From NCBI RefSeq assembly GCF_000687455.2, contig NZ_JGVW01000096.1, positions 1-64,000 on the forward strand: a stretch of 64,000 bases of DNA. Reading direction: 5' to 3'. How positions within the stretch are numbered: the stretch's first letter is position 1; every line of letters begins with the position of its first letter. This document shows, one piece after another, positions 712 through 9,500 of this stretch. A model generated the notes under the pieces. That model did not search any database. It was not told the origin of the DNA and saw only the letters and a program-made list of their open reading frames with translations. The translations under genes and the position numbers were made by a program. The DNA is from Burkholderia sp. lig30 (lineage in GTDB: Bacteria; Pseudomonadota; Gammaproteobacteria; Burkholderiales; Burkholderiaceae).

Positions 712-1167
712 GAAATCCTCCGTGTATGAAAGGCGCCGCGTCGCGGCGGCTTGGCGCATCGGCAGGTGGTTTCCCGCTTGCCGATGCCGGCGGATATTAC
801 ACCACCGGTTCCCTTAAATACGGCTTAAACGCGCGATATCAAGTGGCGCCGCGGCGCACCCGGACGGGCTCCGGGTGCGGGTGTCTTTCAGGATTGAAAG
901 GCGTGGTGCGGTCGGCGGGCGTGTGGTGTCCATGATAGGCCGCGAGGAGGGCGGAATGCCTCGCAGCGACACGCGATGCGGGAATTTTTACAAAAAATCG
1001 CGAAGCTAATCGGTTGATTTCATTAAAATGCGCTGTCACGTCGCGGGAACGGATCGCCGCGCGGCGGGGTCTGTCGACGTGACACGTTGCACAACGCATC
1101 CTCTCTCGATTCATTCGCGCATGCGTGCCGCATGCGTCCGAGGGCGCTGCGCGCCCGCCATTCCGAC
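712..1167. other. divergent intergenic region between pspA-like gene and PBP1A
   Basis: This 456-bp gap separates two divergent genes. It contains AT-rich stretches at about 825-845 and 981-1030 that could hold promoters for each side, but no pair of -35/-10 boxes is convincing. No sigma-54 motif was recognised upstream of the PspA-like gene. A TTG at 1087 would extend the PBP1A frame into this gap. Confidence 0.4.
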
Positions 1168-3687
1168 ATGCCAATTATCAAACGACCGTCTTCCTCCCGC
1201 GCCACGAACGACCATCATTACACGTTGCGCCGCTCGCCTTCGGGGGCCTTTTACACCGACGATGACGACCGCGACGCGCACCGCATGCCGCGCGGCGGCG
1301 ATGACGACGGCGGCCGCTCGTTCGGCTCGCGCGTCGCGCTCTGGTTCGCGGGCCTGTTCGTCACCCTTGTCGTCGTTGGCGCGCTGATCGTCGGCTACGC
1401 GCTCGTCGTCATGGCGCCGCAGCTGCCGCCTCTCGACGCGCTGACGAACTACCAGCCGAAGGTGCCGCTGCGCGTCTACTCGGCCGATCACGTGCTGCTC
1501 GCCGAATTCGGCGAGGAGCGCCGCAGCCTCGTGCGCTTCCAGGAGATTCCGGACGTGATGAAGAAAGCGGTGCTCGCGATCGAGGACTACCGCTTCTACG
1601 AGCACGGCGGCGTCGATTTCCTCGGCATCATGCGCGCCGGTGTCACCGACCTGCTGCATGGCGGCTCGCGGCAGGGCGCGAGCACGATCACGATGCAGGT
1701 TGCGCGCAACTTCTTCCTGTCGAGCGAAAAGACCTATACGCGCAAGATCTACGAGATGCTGCTCGCGTACAAGATCGAAAAGGCGCTGACGAAGGACCAG
1801 ATCCTCGAGCTGTACATGAACCAGATCTATCTGGGGCAGCGCTCGTACGGCTTCGCGGCTGCCGCGCGGGTGTACTTCGGCAAGGACCTGAAGGACATCA
1901 CGCTCGCCGAGGCGGCGATGCTCGCCGGCTTGCCGAAGGCGCCGTCCGCGTACAACCCGGTCGTCAATCCGAAGCGCGCGAAGGTGCGTCAGGAGTACAT
2001 CCTCAAGCGGATGCTCGAGATCGGCTACATCACGCAGCCGCAGTACGAGCAGGCCGTCAGGGAGGAGATCCACACGCGCACGTCGGGCAACCAGTATGCG
2101 GTGCACGCCGAGTACGTCGCGGAGATGGTGCGGCAGATGATGTACGCGCAGTACAAGGACGAGACGTACACGCGCGGGCTGACCGTCACGACGACGATCA
2201 ACGCGGCCGACCAGGAAGCCGCCTACCAGGCGGTGCGACGCGGCATTCTCGATTACGAGCGCCGTCACGGCTATCGCGGGCCGGAAGGCGCCATCGCGCT
2301 GCCGGCGCCGGGCGACGATCGCGACGAGGCGATCGACGACGCGCTCGCCGATCATCCGGACAACGGCGACCTGCAGTCGGCGGTGGTGCTGGCGGTCGCG
2401 CCGAACGCGGTGCAGGTGCAGTTCGTCGGCGGCGCGACCACGACCATCGGCGCGGGCGGCCTGCGCTTCGTCGCGGGCGCGCTGTCGCCGCGCGCGGCCG
2501 ACGCGCAGCGCATCAAGCCCGGCTCGATCGTGCGCGTGATGAAGGACGCGAAGAGCGACTGGCAGGTGGTGCAGCTGCCGCAGGTCGAGGGCGCGCTCGT
2601 CGCGGTCGCGCCGCAGGACGGCGCGATCCGCTCGCTGGTCGGCGGCTTCGACTTCAACAAGAGCAAGTTCAACCACGTCACGCAGGCGTGGCGTCAGCCG
2701 GGCTCGTCGTTCAAGCCGTTCATCTATTCGGCATCGCTCGACAAGGGCATGGGGCCGGCGACGATCATCAACGACGCGCCGCTGTACTTCCCGCCGAGCG
2801 TGCCGGGCGGCACCGCCTGGGAGCCGAAGGACGACGACCAGCCCGACGGCCCGATGTCGATGCGTACCGCGCTGCAGCGCTCGAAGAACCTGGTGTCGAT
2901 CCGCATTCTCGCGTCGATCGGCACGCAGTACGCGCAGGACTACGTGACGCAGCGTTTCGGTTTCGATCCCGCGAAGACGCCGCCGTATCTGCCGATGGCG
3001 CTCGGCGCCGGCCTCGTCACGCCGCTGCAGCTCGCGACCGGCTACGCGGTGTTCGCGAACGGCGGCTACAAGGTCGACCCGTACCTGATCGCCGAGGTTG
3101 ACGACGCGCGCGGCCAGGCGCTGCAGAAGGCGCAGCCGGTGATCGCGGGCAGCACGGCGCCGCGCACGATCGAGGGCCGCAACGCGTACGTGATGAGCAG
3201 CCTGCTGCACACGGTCGCGACCGCGGGCACCGGCGCGGGCACCAACGCGCTCGGCCGCGGCGACCTGCAGGGCAAGACGGGCACGACCAACGAGGCGAAG
3301 GACGGCTGGTTCGCCGGCTATCAGCAATCGCTCGTCGCGGTCGCGTGGATGGGCTTCGACCAGCCGAAGAGCCTCGGCGGCCGCGAGTTCGGCGCGCAGC
3401 TCGCGCTGCCGATCTGGGTGAACTACATGCGCACCGCGCTGCAGGGCGTGCCGGAGCAGCCGATGCCGCTGCCGGATGGCGTCACGACGATCGACGGCGA
3501 ACTGTATTACGCCGACCGGACGCCGGGCGAGGGCTTCGTCGCGAGCGTCGACATCAACCCGGCGGCCAACGCGATGAGCGCGAACGACGCGCTCGGCTCG
3601 GCCGGCTCGGCGGGCCTCGCGCCGCCGCCCGTGACGGCGTCGGAGAAGCAGCAGATCATGGACATGTTCGAAAGCAACAAGCCCTGA
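1168..3687 (+). CDS. mrcA: penicillin-binding protein 1A (bifunctional transglycosylase/transpeptidase)
   Basis: An 839-residue class A penicillin-binding protein that polymerises and cross-links peptidoglycan from the periplasmic face. A cytoplasmic tail rich in Asp/Arg is followed by a membrane anchor at about 56-81. The GT51 glycosyltransferase domain shows EDYRFYEHGGVD (catalytic Glu near 139), GASTITMQ and LELYMNQIYLG. The transpeptidase domain has the acylation motif SSFK (Ser about 513), SKN, and KTGTTNEAKDGW (Lys about 703). The 250-residue insert between the domains resembles the OB-like region of PBP1A. ATG 1168 was preferred over TTG 1087, although neither has a good ribosome binding site. 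A strong terminator follows. Confidence 0.9.
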   Translation: MPIIKRPSSSRATNDHHYTLRRSPSGAFYTDDDDRDAHRMPRGGDDDGGRSFGSRVALWFAGLFVTLVVVGALIVGYALVVMAPQLPPLDALTNYQPKVPLRVYSADHVLLAEFGEERRSLVRFQEIPDVMKKAVLAIEDYRFYEHGGVDFLGIMRAGVTDLLHGGSRQGASTITMQVARNFFLSSEKTYTRKIYEMLLAYKIEKALTKDQILELYMNQIYLGQRSYGFAAAARVYFGKDLKDITLAEAAMLAGLPKAPSAYNPVVNPKRAKVRQEYILKRMLEIGYITQPQYEQAVREEIHTRTSGNQYAVHAEYVAEMVRQMMYAQYKDETYTRGLTVTTTINAADQEAAYQAVRRGILDYERRHGYRGPEGAIALPAPGDDRDEAIDDALADHPDNGDLQSAVVLAVAPNAVQVQFVGGATTTIGAGGLRFVAGALSPRAADAQRIKPGSIVRVMKDAKSDWQVVQLPQVEGALVAVAPQDGAIRSLVGGFDFNKSKFNHVTQAWRQPGSSFKPFIYSASLDKGMGPATIINDAPLYFPPSVPGGTAWEPKDDDQPDGPMSMRTALQRSKNLVSIRILASIGTQYAQDYVTQRFGFDPAKTPPYLPMALGAGLVTPLQLATGYAVFANGGYKVDPYLIAEVDDARGQALQKAQPVIAGSTAPRTIEGRNAYVMSSLLHTVATAGTGAGTNALGRGDLQGKTGTTNEAKDGWFAGYQQSLVAVAWMGFDQPKSLGGREFGAQLALPIWVNYMRTALQGVPEQPMPLPDGVTTIDGELYYADRTPGEGFVASVDINPAANAMSANDALGSAGSAGLAPPPVTASEKQQIMDMFESNKP

Positions 3688-3732
3688 TCGGGCAGGACCG
3701 GGCGCGCAGGCGCCCGGTTGCCGGACGCAGCG

Positions 3733-3761
3733 GCGGCCGCCTTGGGCGGCCGCTTTTTTTT
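3733..3761 (+). terminator. intrinsic terminator of PBP1A gene
   Basis: A 9-bp perfect GC stem (GCGGCCGCC with its complement, loop TTG) is followed by eight T residues, 46 bases past the PBP1A stop codon. Confidence 0.88.
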
Positions 3762-3796
3762 GATGCCGGGACGGGCGCGATCGGTAAAGCCTTCCG

Positions 3797-3864
3797 CATC
3801 AAGGACTTGGCATGTCGCTCCCGGCGTTATCAACATCCCTGTCAACAAAAATTGTGGATAACCC
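3797..3864 (+). repeat. DnaA/IHF-like repeat unit 1
   Basis: First of three 68-bp units aligned without gaps. It contains an IHF-like site at 3797-3809 (CATCAAGGACTTG, one mismatch to WATCAANNNNTTR), a DnaA-box variant TTATCAACA at 3827-3835, and an inverted perfect DnaA box TGTGGATAA at 3853-3861 followed by CCC. It matches unit 2 at 50 of 68 positions by eye. Confidence 0.75.
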
Positions 3865-3928
3865 GCGAGCCTGCGCGGCGCTGCCGCTGGTGCGGTACGC
3901 GCTCGCGCAATGAGGAATTTCCATTCAA

Positions 3929-3996
3929 AAACAATGGCTTGGCCTGCTTCTCGGCAAGTTCTCCACAATCCTGTCAACAAAAATTGGGGATAACCC
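3929..3996 (+). repeat. DnaA/IHF-like repeat unit 2
   Basis: Second 68-bp unit, starting 132 bp after the first. The IHF-like site at 3929-3941 has one mismatch (AAACAATGGCTTG). DnaA-like boxes are TTCTCCACA at 3959-3967 and inverted TGGGGATAA at 3985-3993. The offsets of all three sites inside the unit equal those of unit 1. The core GTCAACAAAAATTG is identical to unit 1. Confidence 0.75.
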
Positions 3997-4051
3997 TGCG
4001 GCGATGGCGCCGCGCCGCCTCATCTTGCATCGCGCAAGCAAAAAGGCATCC

Positions 4052-4119
4052 AATCAATGGGTTATCGCGCTTTTCAGAAAGTTTTCAACAGGTTATTCAA
4101 CACGAACTGGGGATAACCC
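4052..4119 (+). repeat. DnaA/IHF-like repeat unit 3
   Basis: Third 68-bp unit, starting 123 bp after the second. It has a perfect IHF consensus AATCAATGGGTTA at 4052-4064, a box TTTTCAACA at 4082-4090 and an inverted box TGGGGATAA at 4108-4116, again at the same internal offsets (0, 30, 56). It matches unit 2 at 48 of 68 positions. It ends 11 bp before the stop codon of the convergent dehydratase gene. Confidence 0.75.
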
Positions 4120-4130
4120 TAGCGTCCCAG

Positions 4131-5147
4131 TCATCGCGGTGTGCGCGCATGCGCGAGGTGCATGCCGAGCGTGACCGGGTCGGTGTTCGTGCCGGACAGC
4201 AGCACGCCGACCCGCCGGCCCTGCAGCGTTTCGCGCAACGGGCCGAGCAGCGCGGCGATCGCCGCCGCGCACGCCGGCTCGACCGCCAGCTTCAGCTGCG
4301 AGAACAGATAGAGCATCGCCGCGCGCAACGCGTCGTCGGAGACGGTGACGATCCGGTCGACGTGCCGCCGGCACAGCTGATAGCTGTATTCCTCGGTATG
4401 CGGCGCCATCAGCGAATCGGCGATCGTGTGCATTGCCGTCATCGTGACCGTGTGGTTCGCGGCGAAGCTGCGGTACATCGCGTCGGCGCCTTCCGGTTCG
4501 ACGCCGAACACGTGCACGCGCGGATTCGCGAGGCGCAGCGCGGTCGACACGCCGGCCGCGAGGCCGCCGCCGCCGATCGGCACGATCACCGCATCGAAGT
4601 CCGGCACCTGCGTCGCCCATTCGTAGCCGAGCGTCGCGGTGCCGAGAATCGTGTGATAGCCGTTGAACGGATGGATGAAGAAGCGGCCTTCCTCCGCTTC
4701 GATGCGCCGCACGAGGTCGAAGGCCTGCGCCGCGCTCGCCGCCAGCACGACTTCCGCGCCGTACTGTCTGCATTGCGCGATGCGAGTCGGGCTCGCGGTG
4801 TTGAACATCACGACCTTCGCGCTGCTGCCCAGCCGCATCGCCGCATACGCGACCGCCGCCGCGTGGTTGCCCGCCGACACGCAGGTCACGCCGGCGCTCC
4901 TGCGCGCCTCGTCGAGCGCGAGCAGGTGCGTGAACGCGCCGCGCGCCTTGAAGCTGCCGCTCGCCTGCAGCAGCTCGAACTTGAAGTTCACGTGCGAGCC
5001 TTCGAGCGACGGCAGGTCGGTACGCTCGAATATGGGCGTGCGGGCGACCCATGGCGACAGCGCGAAGTGTTGCGCGGCGATGTCGTCGAGCGTGGGGATC
5101 GGCTCGCCGTCGATCGTATGAGCGGTGCTCTGTTGTGTGGTCGCCAT
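4131..5147 (-). CDS. PLP-dependent serine/threonine dehydratase family protein
   Basis: A 338-residue fold-type II PLP enzyme, probably deaminating threonine or serine to the oxo-acid. The PLP lysine lies in SGSFKARGA, the substrate loop in SAGNHAAAVAYAA and the phosphate-binding glycine loop in IGGGGLAAGV. There is no C-terminal ACT regulatory domain, so it resembles the catabolic (TdcB-like) or racemase-like branch rather than biosynthetic IlvA. It lies 56 bp downstream of argE on the same strand and is probably co-transcribed. Substrate is not determined; serine racemase or a hydroxy-amino-acid dehydratase remain possible. The start MATTQQ at 5147 is the only Met near the family N-terminus. 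Confidence 0.82.
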   Translation of the reverse strand: MATTQQSTAHTIDGEPIPTLDDIAAQHFALSPWVARTPIFERTDLPSLEGSHVNFKFELLQASGSFKARGAFTHLLALDEARRSAGVTCVSAGNHAAAVAYAAMRLGSSAKVVMFNTASPTRIAQCRQYGAEVVLAASAAQAFDLVRRIEAEEGRFFIHPFNGYHTILGTATLGYEWATQVPDFDAVIVPIGGGGLAAGVSTALRLANPRVHVFGVEPEGADAMYRSFAANHTVTMTAMHTIADSLMAPHTEEYSYQLCRRHVDRIVTVSDDALRAAMLYLFSQLKLAVEPACAAAIAALLGPLRETLQGRRVGVLLSGTNTDPVTLGMHLAHARTPR

Positions 5148-5203
5148 GGCCTTGCGTGTGGGTGGGCCGGCCCGCGCGCAGGCCGGCGTGGCGTGGGGCC
5201 GGC

Positions 5204-6430
5204 TCAGTGATCGCCGGCGTCGACGGACATGCTGCGGATCAGCTTGCGCAGGAACCGTTCGCACTCGGCAAGCTGCGCGAGTTCGACGTATTCGTTCGGC
5301 TTGTGCGCCTGCTCGATGTTGCCCGGCCCGCACACGACGCTCGGAATGCCGGCGCGCTCGAACAGGCCGGCTTCGGTGCCGTACGCGACCTTGCGCTTTT
5401 CCTGGTCGGCGGTCAGCGCGCGCACGAGCTGCGTGATCGCGGCGTGTTCGGCCGAGTCGAGGCCGGGCGCGGCGGAGATCTTCGAGAATTCGATCGCGGC
5501 GTCTGGATGCTCGCGGCGCATCTGCGGCAGCAGCGTTTCGTTCGCGTAGGCTTCGATGCGCGCGAAGATCCGCTCGGGGTCGAGGGTCGGCAGGTTGCGG
5601 AACTCGAACGCGAAGCGGCATTCGGCCGGCACGGTGTTGATCGCGTTGCCGCCTTCGATCGTGCTCGTCTGCGCGGTCGTGAACGGCACGTCGTAGAGCG
5701 CGTCGAACGGGCCTTCCGTACGGAAGCGGTCGGCGACGTCGCGAATGTGGCAGATGAGGCGCGCCGCGTACTCGATCGCGTTCAGGCCCTTTGGCGTCAG
5801 CGACGAGTGCGCCGCATGGCCGCGCACGCAGCAGCGGTAGGTGTTGATGCCCTTGTGCGCGATGATGGGCCGCATGCCGGTCGGCTCGCCGACGATGCAG
5901 CCGGTCGGCATCACGCCGCGCGCCTGCAGGTCGGCGATCATCAGCGGCGCGCCGGCGCAGCCGACTTCCTCGTCGTACGACAGCGCGAAATGGATCGGCT
6001 TCGCGAGCCGGGCCGCCTGCATCTCGGGCAGCAGCGCGAGCGCGGCGCCGATGAAGCCCTTCATGTCGCAGGTGCCGCGACCGTACAGGCGGCCGTCGCG
6101 GATCTCCGGGCGGAACGGGGCGCTGTCCCACGCCTGGCCATCCACCGGCACGACGTCGGTGTGACCGGACAGCACGATGCCGCCGTTCGTCGTGCCGTCA
6201 TGCGCGGGCACCGTCGCGAACAGGTTCGCCCAGCCTTCGCGTGGATCGTGCGTGAGCGTCGACGCGATGCCCTTCGCGGCGAGCGCGTCGCGGACCGTCT
6301 CGATGAGGCCGAGGTTCGGCACGCGGCTCGTCGTGTCCATCGACACGAGACCCCTGACCCAGCCCAGGCTGACGGGGGAGGCGGCGCCCGGGCCGGCGGC
6401 GGATGCCGCCGTCGCGTCGAGGGTGGACAT
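5204..6430 (-). CDS. argE: acetylornithine deacetylase (M20 family)
   Basis: A 408-residue M20 metallopeptidase-type deacylase that removes the acetyl group from N-acetylornithine in arginine synthesis. Zinc and catalytic signatures are visible: SGHTDVVPVDG, RGTCDMKGFIG (bridging Asp) and SYDEEVGCAG (catalytic Glu pair). Length matches ArgE. The start at 6430 (MSTLDATAAS) is preferred over the in-frame Met at 6469, which precedes an uncharacteristic segment. The downstream gene is the PLP dehydratase on the same strand. Related M20 deacylases could share these motifs, but the N-terminal WVRGLVSMDTTSRVPN block fits ArgE. Confidence 0.87.
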   Translation of the reverse strand: MSTLDATAASAAGPGAASPVSLGWVRGLVSMDTTSRVPNLGLIETVRDALAAKGIASTLTHDPREGWANLFATVPAHDGTTNGGIVLSGHTDVVPVDGQAWDSAPFRPEIRDGRLYGRGTCDMKGFIGAALALLPEMQAARLAKPIHFALSYDEEVGCAGAPLMIADLQARGVMPTGCIVGEPTGMRPIIAHKGINTYRCCVRGHAAHSSLTPKGLNAIEYAARLICHIRDVADRFRTEGPFDALYDVPFTTAQTSTIEGGNAINTVPAECRFAFEFRNLPTLDPERIFARIEAYANETLLPQMRREHPDAAIEFSKISAAPGLDSAEHAAITQLVRALTADQEKRKVAYGTEAGLFERAGIPSVVCGPGNIEQAHKPNEYVELAQLAECERFLRKLIRSMSVDAGDH

Positions 6431-6574
6431 GGCTGAACTCCGTCTGATGAATGGGAAAATCATACTCAAAAACGATGCGGCCCGCCTGCGCGGGCCACGG
6501 TGCAGCGCAACATGCGCGCCGATCGTACGGAGTCCTGCGGCCGTCGCCCGCTCGCGCGCGAAGCGCGGCGGGGC

Positions 6575-9500
6575 CTAGCGCGGCGCGGCGGCCGTGCCTT
6601 CGCGGATCGGGTGGCCGAGCGCGCGCAGCGTCTCCTTGACCGTCGACACGCGGACCGCGAGGTCGGGCGTGCGCGTCTCGATGCGCAGCTTGTCCTGGCC
6701 GGCGAGCTTGATGTGGCGGTGCTTCTGGACCATCTCGATGATGCGCATCGGATCAATCGGCGGGTTCGGCACGAACTGCAGCCCGATCGCAACCTCGCTC
6801 GCGTCGATCTTGACGATGCCGAGCGGCTTCGCGGCGAGGCGCAGCCGGTGCGTCTCGACGAGCGCATGCGCTTGCGGCGGCATCTTGCCGAAGCGGTCGA
6901 TCAGCTCTTCCTGGATGCCGTCGATCGCGTCGCCGTGCTCGCAGTTCGCGAGACGCTTGTAGAGCGACAGGCGTTCCTGCACGTCGACGCAATAGTCGGC
7001 AGGCAGGATCGCGGGCGCGTGCAGGTTGATCTCGGTCGTCGCCGCGAGCGGGGCGGTGAGGTCGGGCTCCTTGCCGTTCTTCAGCGCCTTCACCGCGTCG
7101 TTGAGCATCTCCGTGTAGAGCTGGAAGCCGATCTCGTGGATCTCTCCGGACTGCTTGTCGCCGAGCACCTCGCCGGTGCCGCGGATCTCGAGGTCGTGCA
7201 TCGCGAGATAGAAGCCCGAGCCGAGCTCCTCCATCTGCTGGATCGCCTCGAGGCGGCGCTGCGCCTGCTTGGTCAGCGCCTGCGGATCGTGCACGAGCAG
7301 GTACGCGTACGCCTGGTGGTGCGAGCGGCCGACGCGCCCGCGCAGCTGGTGGAGCTGCGCGAGGCCGAACTTGTCCGAGCGGTGCATGATGATCGTGTTC
7401 GCGCTCGGCACGTCGATGCCGGTCTCGATGATCGTCGTGCACAGCAGCACGTTCGCGCGCTGCGCGACGAAATCGCGCATCACGCGCTCGAGCTCGCGCT
7501 CGTGCATCTGGCCGTGCGCGATCGCGATGCGCGCCTCGGGCACGAGCGCTTCCAGCATCGCGCGGCGGTTGTCGATCGTCTCGACCTCGTTGTGCAGGAA
7601 GTAGACCTGGCCGCCGCGCTTCAGCTCGCGCAGCATCGCCTCGCGAATTACGCTTTCTTCCTCGCGCCGCACGAAGGTCTTGATCGCGAGGCGCTTTTGC
7701 GGCGCGGTCGCGATCACCGAGAAGTCGCGCAGGCCTTCGAGCGCCATCCCGAGCGTGCGGGGGATCGGCGTCGCGGTCAGCGTCAGCACGTCGACCTCCG
7801 CGCGCAGCGCCTTCAGCGCTTCCTTCTGGCGCACGCCGAAACGGTGCTCCTCGTCGATGATCACGAGGCCGAGCCGCTTGAACTGCACGTCCGACGACAG
7901 CAGCTTGTGCGTGCCGATCACGATGTCGACGCTGCCTTCGTTGATCTGGCCGATCGCCGCGTTGACCTCCTTCGCGGACTTGAAGCGCGACAGCTCGGCG
8001 ACCCGCACCGGCCAGTCGGCGAAGCGGTCGATGAAGGTTTGCGTGTGCTGCTCGGCGAGCAGCGTCGTCGGCGACAGCAGCGCGACCTGCTTGCCGCCCA
8101 TCACCGCGATGAACGCGGCACGCAGCGCGACCTCGGTCTTGCCGAAGCCGACGTCGCCGCACACGAGCCGGTCCATCGGCTTGCCGCTCGTCATGTCGCC
8201 GATCACGGCCGCGATCGCCGCGGCCTGGTCAGGCGTTTCCTCGAAGCCGAAGCTCTCGGCGAACTTCACGTAGTCGCGTGGCTCCAGCCCGAACGCGTGG
8301 CCCTCGCGGGCGGCGCGGCGCGCGTACAGGTTGAGCAGCTCGGCGGCGGTGTCGCGGATCTGCTGCGCGGCCTTGCGCTTTGCGCGCTCCCACTGGCCCG
8401 AGCCGAGCGCATGCAGCGGCGCGCTGTCCGGATCGGCGCCGCTGTAGCGCGAAATCACGTGCAGCTGGGCGACCGGCACGTAGAGCTTGCTGTCGCCCGC
8501 ATATTCGAGATGCAGGAATTCGGTCTCGCCTTCGCCGAGATCCATCGACACGAGGCCCATGTAGCGGCCGATGCCGTGCTGCGCATGCACGACCGGGTCG
8601 CCTTCCTTCAGCTCGGACAGGTCGCGCACCATCGCGTCGACGTTGCTCGCCTGTTCCTGGCGGCGGCGTCCCGCACGGCGGCCGAGCGCGCCGTACAGCT
8701 CCGTCTCGGTGACGATCGCGTAGCCTTCGCCCGGCACCGCGAAGCCGCCCGCGAGCGGCGCGACGCCGAGCGCGAAGGTCTCGTCGCTCGCGAGCCAGCC
8801 GGCGAAGTGGTCGCTCGACGCGGGCTTCAGCCGGTGCTCGGCGAGCAGCTGCGAGATCGTCTCGCGGCGGCCCGCCGATTCGACGGTCAGCAGCACGCGC
8901 TTGCCGGAGCTGCCGACGAACGCGCGCAGCGCGGCGAGCGGATCGTCGGCGTGACGGTCGATCGACAGCTCGGGGAGGGCGCTCGCCCAGCCGCCCTCGG
9001 GCTGCGCGGGCAGCACGACGCGCGCGAACGGCTTCGCGAACGTGTAGAAATCGTCGTCCGACAGGAACAGCCGCTGCGGCTCGAGGATCGGCCGCTCGCG
9101 GTCGTGCGACAGGAACGCGTGGCGCTGCCGGGTGTCGGCGGTAAAGCGCCGGATCGCGGTGTCGAGGTCGCCCGAGAACACCAGGTGCGCGCCGGCGGGC
9201 AGATAGTGGAACAGGGTCGCCGTGTCGTCGAAGAACAGTGGCAGGTAATACTCGATGCCGGCCGACGGCACGCCGTTGCCGATGTCCTTGTAGATCGTCG
9301 CGCGGCTCGGGTCGCCTTCGAAGGTCTCGCGCCAGCGGCTGCGGAATGCGGTGCGCGCCGCTTCGTCGAACGGGAATTCACGGCCCGGCAACAGGCGCAC
9401 GTCGCGCACCGGATAGAGGCTGCGCTGCGTGTCCGGATCGAACGCGCGGATCGAGTCGACCTGGTCGTCGAACAGGTCGATCCGGTAAGGCAGCGGCGAG

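Follow-up and report, generated by a model that had tools for sequence, protein, structure and literature searches.

The intergenic gap between mrcA, which encodes PBP1A, and a threonine-dehydratase-like gene in the window (the whole 64-kb stretch of DNA that was analysed) probably holds three tandem DARS-type elements that have been amplified in Burkholderia and would regenerate ATP-DnaA, a reading to which, by analogy with the E. coli DARS sites, we give a probability of about two in three. Since related arrays occur on two chromosomes, as described below, they may also contribute to the timing of DNA replication. The gap contains, at positions 3797-4119, three units of ~68 bp (Table 1), each of which consists, in order, of an IHF-like site, 17 bp, a forward DnaA box, 3 bp, a middle box, 5 bp and an inverted box, i.e., a box spacing of 9-3-9-5-9, with the first box beginning 30 bp after the start of the IHF-like 13-mer and the two outer boxes opposed in all three units. 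A repeat finder returns the units as gapless copies of 69 nt that are 132 and 123 bp apart and 71-72% identical to the reference copy. The original prediction had described three gapless units, IHF-like sites that are perfect in unit 3 and one mismatch away in units 1 and 2, a perfect minus-strand box at 3853 and flanking genes that converge on the array, all of which are present in the sequence; its account of two boxes per unit was right as to the outer boxes and their starts and overlooked the middle box of each unit. With respect to the consensus TTWTNCACA, the outer boxes of the window units have 0-1 mismatches and the middle boxes 2-3. The three-box pattern, written from the window units themselves, gives 3 matches in the 64-kb window versus a mean of 0.00 in 100 dinucleotide-preserving shuffles, and a free-gap scan of the window with Burkholderia-type boxes returns the three units and no other match.

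Table 1. Features of the array and its flanks (positions in the window).
Feature	Position	Strand	Basis
mrcA (PBP1A), flank converging on the array; start codon uncertain	1087..3687	+	Pfam Transgly, Transpeptidase, PCB_OB
GC-rich inverted repeat and T run, by its look the mrcA intrinsic terminator, apart from the array	3732..3761	+	by eye
Unit 1, IHF-like site CATCAAGGACTTG, 1 mismatch to WATCAANNNNTTR; AAA at 3786-3788	3797..3809	+	sequence; 30-bp offset kept in relatives
Unit 1, first box TTATCAACA, counterpart of DARS box III	3827..3835	+	sequence; three-box pattern
Unit 1, middle box CTGTCAACA, DARS box II position; 3 mismatches to TTWTNCACA	3839..3847	+	sequence; fixed gaps
Unit 1, inverted box (a perfect TTATCCACA), counterpart of DARS box I	3853..3861	-	sequence; three-box pattern
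Unit 2, IHF-like site AAACAATGGCTTG, 1 mismatch	3929..3941	+	sequence
Unit 2, first box TTCTCCACA	3959..3967	+	sequence; three-box pattern
Unit 2, middle box CTGTCAACA	3971..3979	+	sequence; three-box pattern
Unit 2, inverted box TTATCCCCA	3985..3993	-	sequence; three-box pattern
Unit 3, IHF-like site AATCAATGGGTTA, 0 mismatches	4052..4064	+	sequence
Unit 3, first box TTTTCAACA	4082..4090	+	sequence; three-box pattern
Unit 3, middle box TATTCAACA, 2 mismatches to TTWTNCACA	4094..4102	+	sequence; three-box pattern
Unit 3, inverted box TTATCCCCA	4108..4116	-	sequence; three-box pattern
Threonine-dehydratase-like PLP enzyme, other converging flank (frame span)	4131..5165	-	Pfam PALP

The spacing of the boxes is equally rigid outside the window. 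When both gaps were left free (Burkholderia-type boxes, gaps of 0-14 x 0-14), all 90 of the 90 matches in 13 Burkholderia genomes (~97 Mb) fell at the 3/5 spacing and the reversed control gave 0; each match spans 34 nt, and every one of 36 distinct strings examined splits into the identical two gaps. In line with this result, the stretch adjacent to the dehydratase gene at 80 named loci yielded 48 matches over 169 gap combinations, 48/48 of them at 3 and 5, and the control flanks of these loci yielded four, because the L213 gene sits early in its contig and its own units fell into the control. Likewise, 239 of 246 distinct free-gap matches in 1,475,958 bases (overlaps included) have the 3/5 spacing, and the other 7 comprise one at 2/5, one at 7/1 and five at 4/4, the last of which are read as 3/5 sites seen from the other strand, as in L001 and L101. 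The earlier proposal that the spacing had stayed exact while the DNA around the sites drifted, suggesting selection on protein-DNA geometry, agrees with this single spacing across 13 genomes.

Conservation within the unit was assessed as information per column in 93 representatives that are <75% identical, taken from 265 distinct units. The boxes hold 1.5-1.7 bits per column, the TTR and WATCAA parts of the IHF motif 1.7 and 1.0 bits, the A-tract preceding this motif 1.0 bits, the 5-bp gap 0.99 bits, the 3-bp gap 0.4 bits and the 17-bp linker 0.3 bits. The sequence of the 5-bp gap is thus itself conserved, and therefore more than the length of this gap is held. The IHF motif is found at -30 with up to 2 mismatches in 73 of the 93 representatives versus 0.25% at other offsets, the loci having mostly been gathered with a model that contained the IHF columns.

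All 13 members of the genus, picked mainly for few contigs, have 10-11 matches to a sequence-only unit model built from 54 modules of 19 loci, namely 1-3 units at the chromosome 1-type (mrcA-type) site, at which the mrcA flank itself was verified in a subset of loci, 6-9 units in a second array, and one box-only unit. The second array is on a different contig from the mrcA-type site and extends within about 2-6 kb (G021 has one additional match 10 kb away); it is located on chromosome 2 where the replicons could be told apart and, in G001, in intergenic DNA as far as annotated. The window's own genome has 7 further units, which lie on contig C136, and a single box-only match, which lies on C121. 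The unit is therefore not a scattered repeat, a distribution that the original prediction had named as refuting it, its matches being limited to two clusters and one site in each of the 13 genomes. At L032:8097-12704 and L033:7923-11726, in other Burkholderia, the second array surrounds a class A β-lactamase gene and its LysR neighbour. In the window's genome (L081:5393-8991), the 7 units lie between matching outer genes, which encode a debranching enzyme and a histidine kinase, and one open frame in this stretch resembles a Tad pilus protein by eye. A β-lactamase link was rejected as the cause of the second array because the window's genome keeps 7 units and has no match to the β-lactamase or the LysR gene on its second-array contig at E<=1e-8.

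In the 13 genomes, the third match is weaker and extends over the boxes only; it is referred to here as the ori2-proximal unit. Its box layout is identical in 5/5 genomes in which it was read, with no IHF-like site seen by eye. In L079, from the one genome annotated at this site, the boxes start at 9025 and the ParA frame of chromosome 2 begins at 6323, 2.7 kb apart, and ParB, a Rep_3 initiator and CCCGAAAAnCTCACC iterons lie beyond ParA. The iterons stand beside the Rep_3 gene and several TTTATGCGCATAAA sites lie near parAB (L079:2200-3000 and 5650-7170); the latter look like parS. For chromosome c2 of B. cenocepacia, one study gives an iteron consensus identical to CCCGAAAAnCTCACC and an Ori-finder origin 4 kb from the iterons (PMC4948915). 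In 10 of the 13 genomes, the third site and the second array share a contig, and in G000, G003 and G020 the third site is located elsewhere; in G003 (C7:377878, C7:1104199), the box-only match shares a contig with the mrcA-type unit, which reflects either a rearrangement or an assembly error. With the ori2-proximal unit taken as the chromosome 2 origin and values compiled by hand for 10 genomes (G000, G003 and G020, whose replicons are in pieces, are left out), the distance from dnaA to the chromosome 1 site amounts to 78.2 ± 2.8% of the replichore, and that from the ori2-proximal unit to the second array to 52.8 ± 4.7%.

The chromosome 1 locus is conserved in relatives, as the original prediction had required. 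mrcA converges within 3 kb at 35 of the 80 named dehydratase loci, 34 of which carry 1-4 units. The exception is B. guangdongensis (L142), in which mrcA converges across a short gap with no unit at the chromosome 1 locus, and the chromosome 1 units are therefore dispensable at least there; a terminator-like stem remains in this gap (L142:6029-6133). The other 44 of the 80 loci, mostly from Paraburkholderia and Caballeronia, have neither a converging mrcA nor a unit, and dehydratase loci without an adjacent mrcA have no unit in the 1.2 kb examined, with the exception of L151, where units are present though mrcA was not found. On a wider scale, the unit model matches 102 of 150 genomes and 16 of the 25 genera sampled in the family at E<=0.001, some of these matches being marginal, and 28 of 200 genomes and 26 of 109 genera in the order at E<=1e-4, the window's own genome included. 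Plain nucleotide BLAST with the window stretch as query was too weak and reached only 23 of 41 genomes; G003, G020 and G021, all members of the genus, gave no BLAST match, yet they are matched by the unit model. Within its own genome, the window stretch has one further match, L002, in which no unit is present. At two Trinickia loci, an additional 3/5 unit with an IHF-like site lies outside the mrcA gap (L168:10124, L212:9079). Additionally, a cluster with an IHF-like site and first boxes is found at L122:915-1600 (G177, genus g19); its unit at 915 has the 3/5 spacing and a perfect middle DnaA box, and the inverted box of at least one unit seems, by eye, to be at a different distance.

The box spacing described above is that of the E. 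coli DARS cores. In the MG1655 regions that we take, from their neighbouring genes, to be those of DARS1, DARS2 and datA, the boxes lie at 208 (+), 222 (-) and 234 (-) in DARS1 and at 636 (+), 650 (-) and 662 (-) in DARS2, with gaps of 5 and 3 in both, and the reverse-complemented core of either site has the spacing of the Burkholderia unit. A strict scan with TTWTNCACA (up to 2 mismatches a box and 3 in total, all orientations, gaps of 0-12) gave a single match, always of the same class, at DARS1, at DARS2 and in a 19-kb stretch covering the chromosome 2 ori/par region of G001, and no match at datA or in two 14-kb dnaA regions. This class accounts for 8 of 15 matches in loci from other Burkholderiales, which are not independent because the loci were collected with the unit model. 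Near the DARS2 core, two IHF-like sequences, both with 1 mismatch, begin 59 and 75 bp beyond box III, and the IHF-like site, as a consensus match, is on the box III side in both DARS2 and the Burkholderia units. The original suggestion of a Burkholderia counterpart of datA or DARS is thus supported for DARS, with a box spacing equal to that of both E. coli cores, and not supported for datA, the layout of which differs.

Fujimitsu 2009, reportedly the original DARS paper, may already list Burkholderia. In later articles, the DARS1 and DARS2 cores have a common box spacing with box I opposed (PMC5742627), the head-to-head boxes I and II are essential (PMC10380432), DARS1 is active in vitro without added factors (PMC5742627), and the relative distance of the E. 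coli DARS sites from oriC is maintained (PMC4585315). The DARS2 core is described there as specific to γ-proteobacteria near E. coli (PMC4245941) and the DARS2 arrangement as common to β- or γ-proteobacteria near E. coli (PMC5742627), DARS-like sequences are mentioned in V. cholerae (PMC6090056), and reviews citing the original DARS paper speak of similar sequences in many proteobacteria. A search of the open-access literature, with subscription papers mostly outside its scope, returned no title on DARS in Burkholderia; one article contains both 'DARS2' and 'Burkholderia' (PMC10218098).

Judged by sequence, relatives show clearly which way the middle box points, but the window units taken alone leave this ambiguous. 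The Burkholderia middle boxes (TTGCCAACA, CTGTCAACA and TATTCAACA) have 2-3 mismatches to TTWTNCACA, and the middle element of two window units is a slightly better fit to DnaA when read in the opposite orientation, shifted by 1 bp. Both points weigh against the DARS reading, as do the conserved sequence of the 5-bp gap, the different distance between box III and the IHF-like site (17 bp here, about 59 bp in DARS2), the loss of the chromosome 1 units in B. guangdongensis and the restriction of the DARS2 core to γ-proteobacteria in PMC4245941. In a looser scan with the consensus alone (up to 3 mismatches a box; 3, 4 or 5 allowed in total), the window gives 0 DARS-class matches and one match of another class at 3 mismatches in all; the DARS class takes 2 of 6 matches at 4 mismatches, tied with two other classes, and 3 of 13 at 5 mismatches, tied with one other class; some of these matches take the middle element in reverse, one base further along. 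In the chromosome 2 array of G001, the DARS class takes 9 of 23 matches with 5 mismatches allowed and the next class 6, and in the chromosome 2 ori region of the same genome two other classes also appear, once each, under the looser box limit. A full-consensus middle box in the DARS orientation is found at L244, L242 and L122, the L244 unit having 0 mismatches to TTWTNCACA, and the ori2-proximal unit has 1 mismatch over all three boxes together, with a full-consensus middle box in the DARS orientation. The middle-box orientation rests on the relatives and the ori2-proximal unit, and the fixed spacing on Burkholderia-type boxes.

By analogy with E. coli DARS2, ADP-DnaA would bind the three boxes of each unit, with DnaA presumably oriented on the middle box as it is on box II. 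Bound head to head at boxes I and II, the AAA+ domains would touch and ADP would be lost, whereby box III would steady the DnaA complex and IHF would bend the flank adjoining box III. The freed apo-DnaA would rebind ATP and become able to start replication of chromosome 1, and replication of the arrays at near-constant replichore fractions would provide more ATP-DnaA for the round that follows. Hda, which in E. coli contributes to the formation of ADP-DnaA, was found in 9/9 genomes searched.

An unlikely alternative, and the one that survives best, is that of a titration array, in which the boxes would soak up DnaA and set its free pool, with nucleotide exchange playing no part. The 10-11 matches amount to about 30-33 boxes per genome, and the uncertain orientation of the middle box would be less important for such an activity. 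However, a titration array would need no constant gaps and no IHF site at a constant distance, yet both are rigid here, and the middle boxes are weak matches. Moreover, the chromosome 1 site, at 78% of the replichore, is remote from oriC1, whereas boxes are dense near the origin according to PMC12371093.

It is improbable that the array is a datA-like element, at which IHF and DnaA would promote ATP hydrolysis and switch DnaA off. datA too needs IHF and a DnaA box cluster (PMC4585315 and PMC10380432), but its perfect IHF match, at 1310, is flanked on either side by a box (at 1245 and 1407), a spacing also described in PMC4585315, whereas the IHF-like site is outside the trio in 3/3 window units. 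The DARS class is absent from datA, and this candidate was set aside on account of its layout.

Very doubtful is a crtS-like checkpoint, i.e., a chromosome 1 site that would bind the chromosome 2 initiator and license chromosome 2. Related sites do occur on two replicons in each genus genome searched, but the chromosome 2 RepA iterons (CCCGAAAAnCTCACC, in L079 and in PMC4948915) are unlike the unit when compared by eye, and units are also present in single-contig genomes of genus g27 (G110, G172), so that both RepA sites of chromosome 2 and a crtS analogue are disfavoured. Additionally, only about 22% of the chromosome 1 replichore is left after the site, and a trigger there would therefore be expected to end chromosome 2 well after chromosome 1.

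A terminator, an RNA hairpin or an ordinary dispersed repeat between converging genes is barely credible: the boxes can pair (71.6% of cells versus 31-43% with partners slid) because they are inverted, and one window piece folds with a z-score of -1.98, but pair counts and folds disfavour a hairpin or terminator, with no covariation beyond that of shuffles (71.6% paired versus 73.7% in shuffles, which also have more two-sided changes) and z-scores of -1.98 to 0.56 over six window pieces, a separate terminator-like stem with a T run precedes the array (Table 1), and the confinement of the matches to their few sites in each of the 13 genomes speaks against a dispersed repeat.

The array bears on the question of how Burkholderia coordinates its plasmid-like second chromosome with the first. 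If the units are working DARS elements, they would offer a defined, deletable handle on the ATP-DnaA supply in β-proteobacteria, as well as a minimal DARS design, since it is the boxes, the lengths of the gaps and the IHF-like site at -30 that are set off against DNA that has drifted, and they would introduce the idea of a DARS dosage spread over two chromosomes. A more speculative extension is that the greater part of the DnaA-recharging capacity of Burkholderia has shifted to chromosome 2, such that copying of the array half-way along the chromosome 2 replichore, together with the late chromosome 1 units, would double the DARS dosage and supply the ATP-DnaA that fires chromosome 1 next. If this tentative idea were true, the main chromosome would receive feedback from the secondary one, opposite in direction to Vibrio crtS.

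Among known systems, crtS of Vibrio cholerae resembles the mrcA-side units in its place on chromosome 1 and in a possible role in coordinating two chromosomes, but it acts via the chromosome 2 initiator RctB, whereas the Burkholderia units are unlike chromosome 2 iterons. datA shares with the units the presence of DnaA boxes and an IHF site outside the origin, and differs from them in having IHF between the boxes and no trio with 5/3 spacing. DARS1 has the same core spacing, and the ori2-proximal unit resembles it in its near-consensus boxes, with a model match over the boxes only; in contrast to DARS1, most Burkholderia units have an IHF-like site, IHF being named for DARS2 in the papers cited here. 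DARS2 is single in E. coli, whereas the units are repeated in Burkholderia (1-4 and 6-9), and its IHF site lies ~59 bp from box III rather than 17 bp as does the Burkholderia IHF-like site. The Burkholderia units also differ from DARS2 in their weaker middle box of ambiguous orientation and in their neighbours on two chromosomes (mrcA, and the debranching enzyme to histidine kinase stretch). DARS2 requires Fis sites (FBS2-3), and the comparison made here is of the boxes and the IHF-like site. In these terms, DARS2 and the Burkholderia units share a trio of 9-mer boxes separated by 5 and 3 bp, an IHF-like site on the box III side, the opposition of box I to box III and, in relatives, also to box II, and a position away from the origin, their distance to which is nearly constant.
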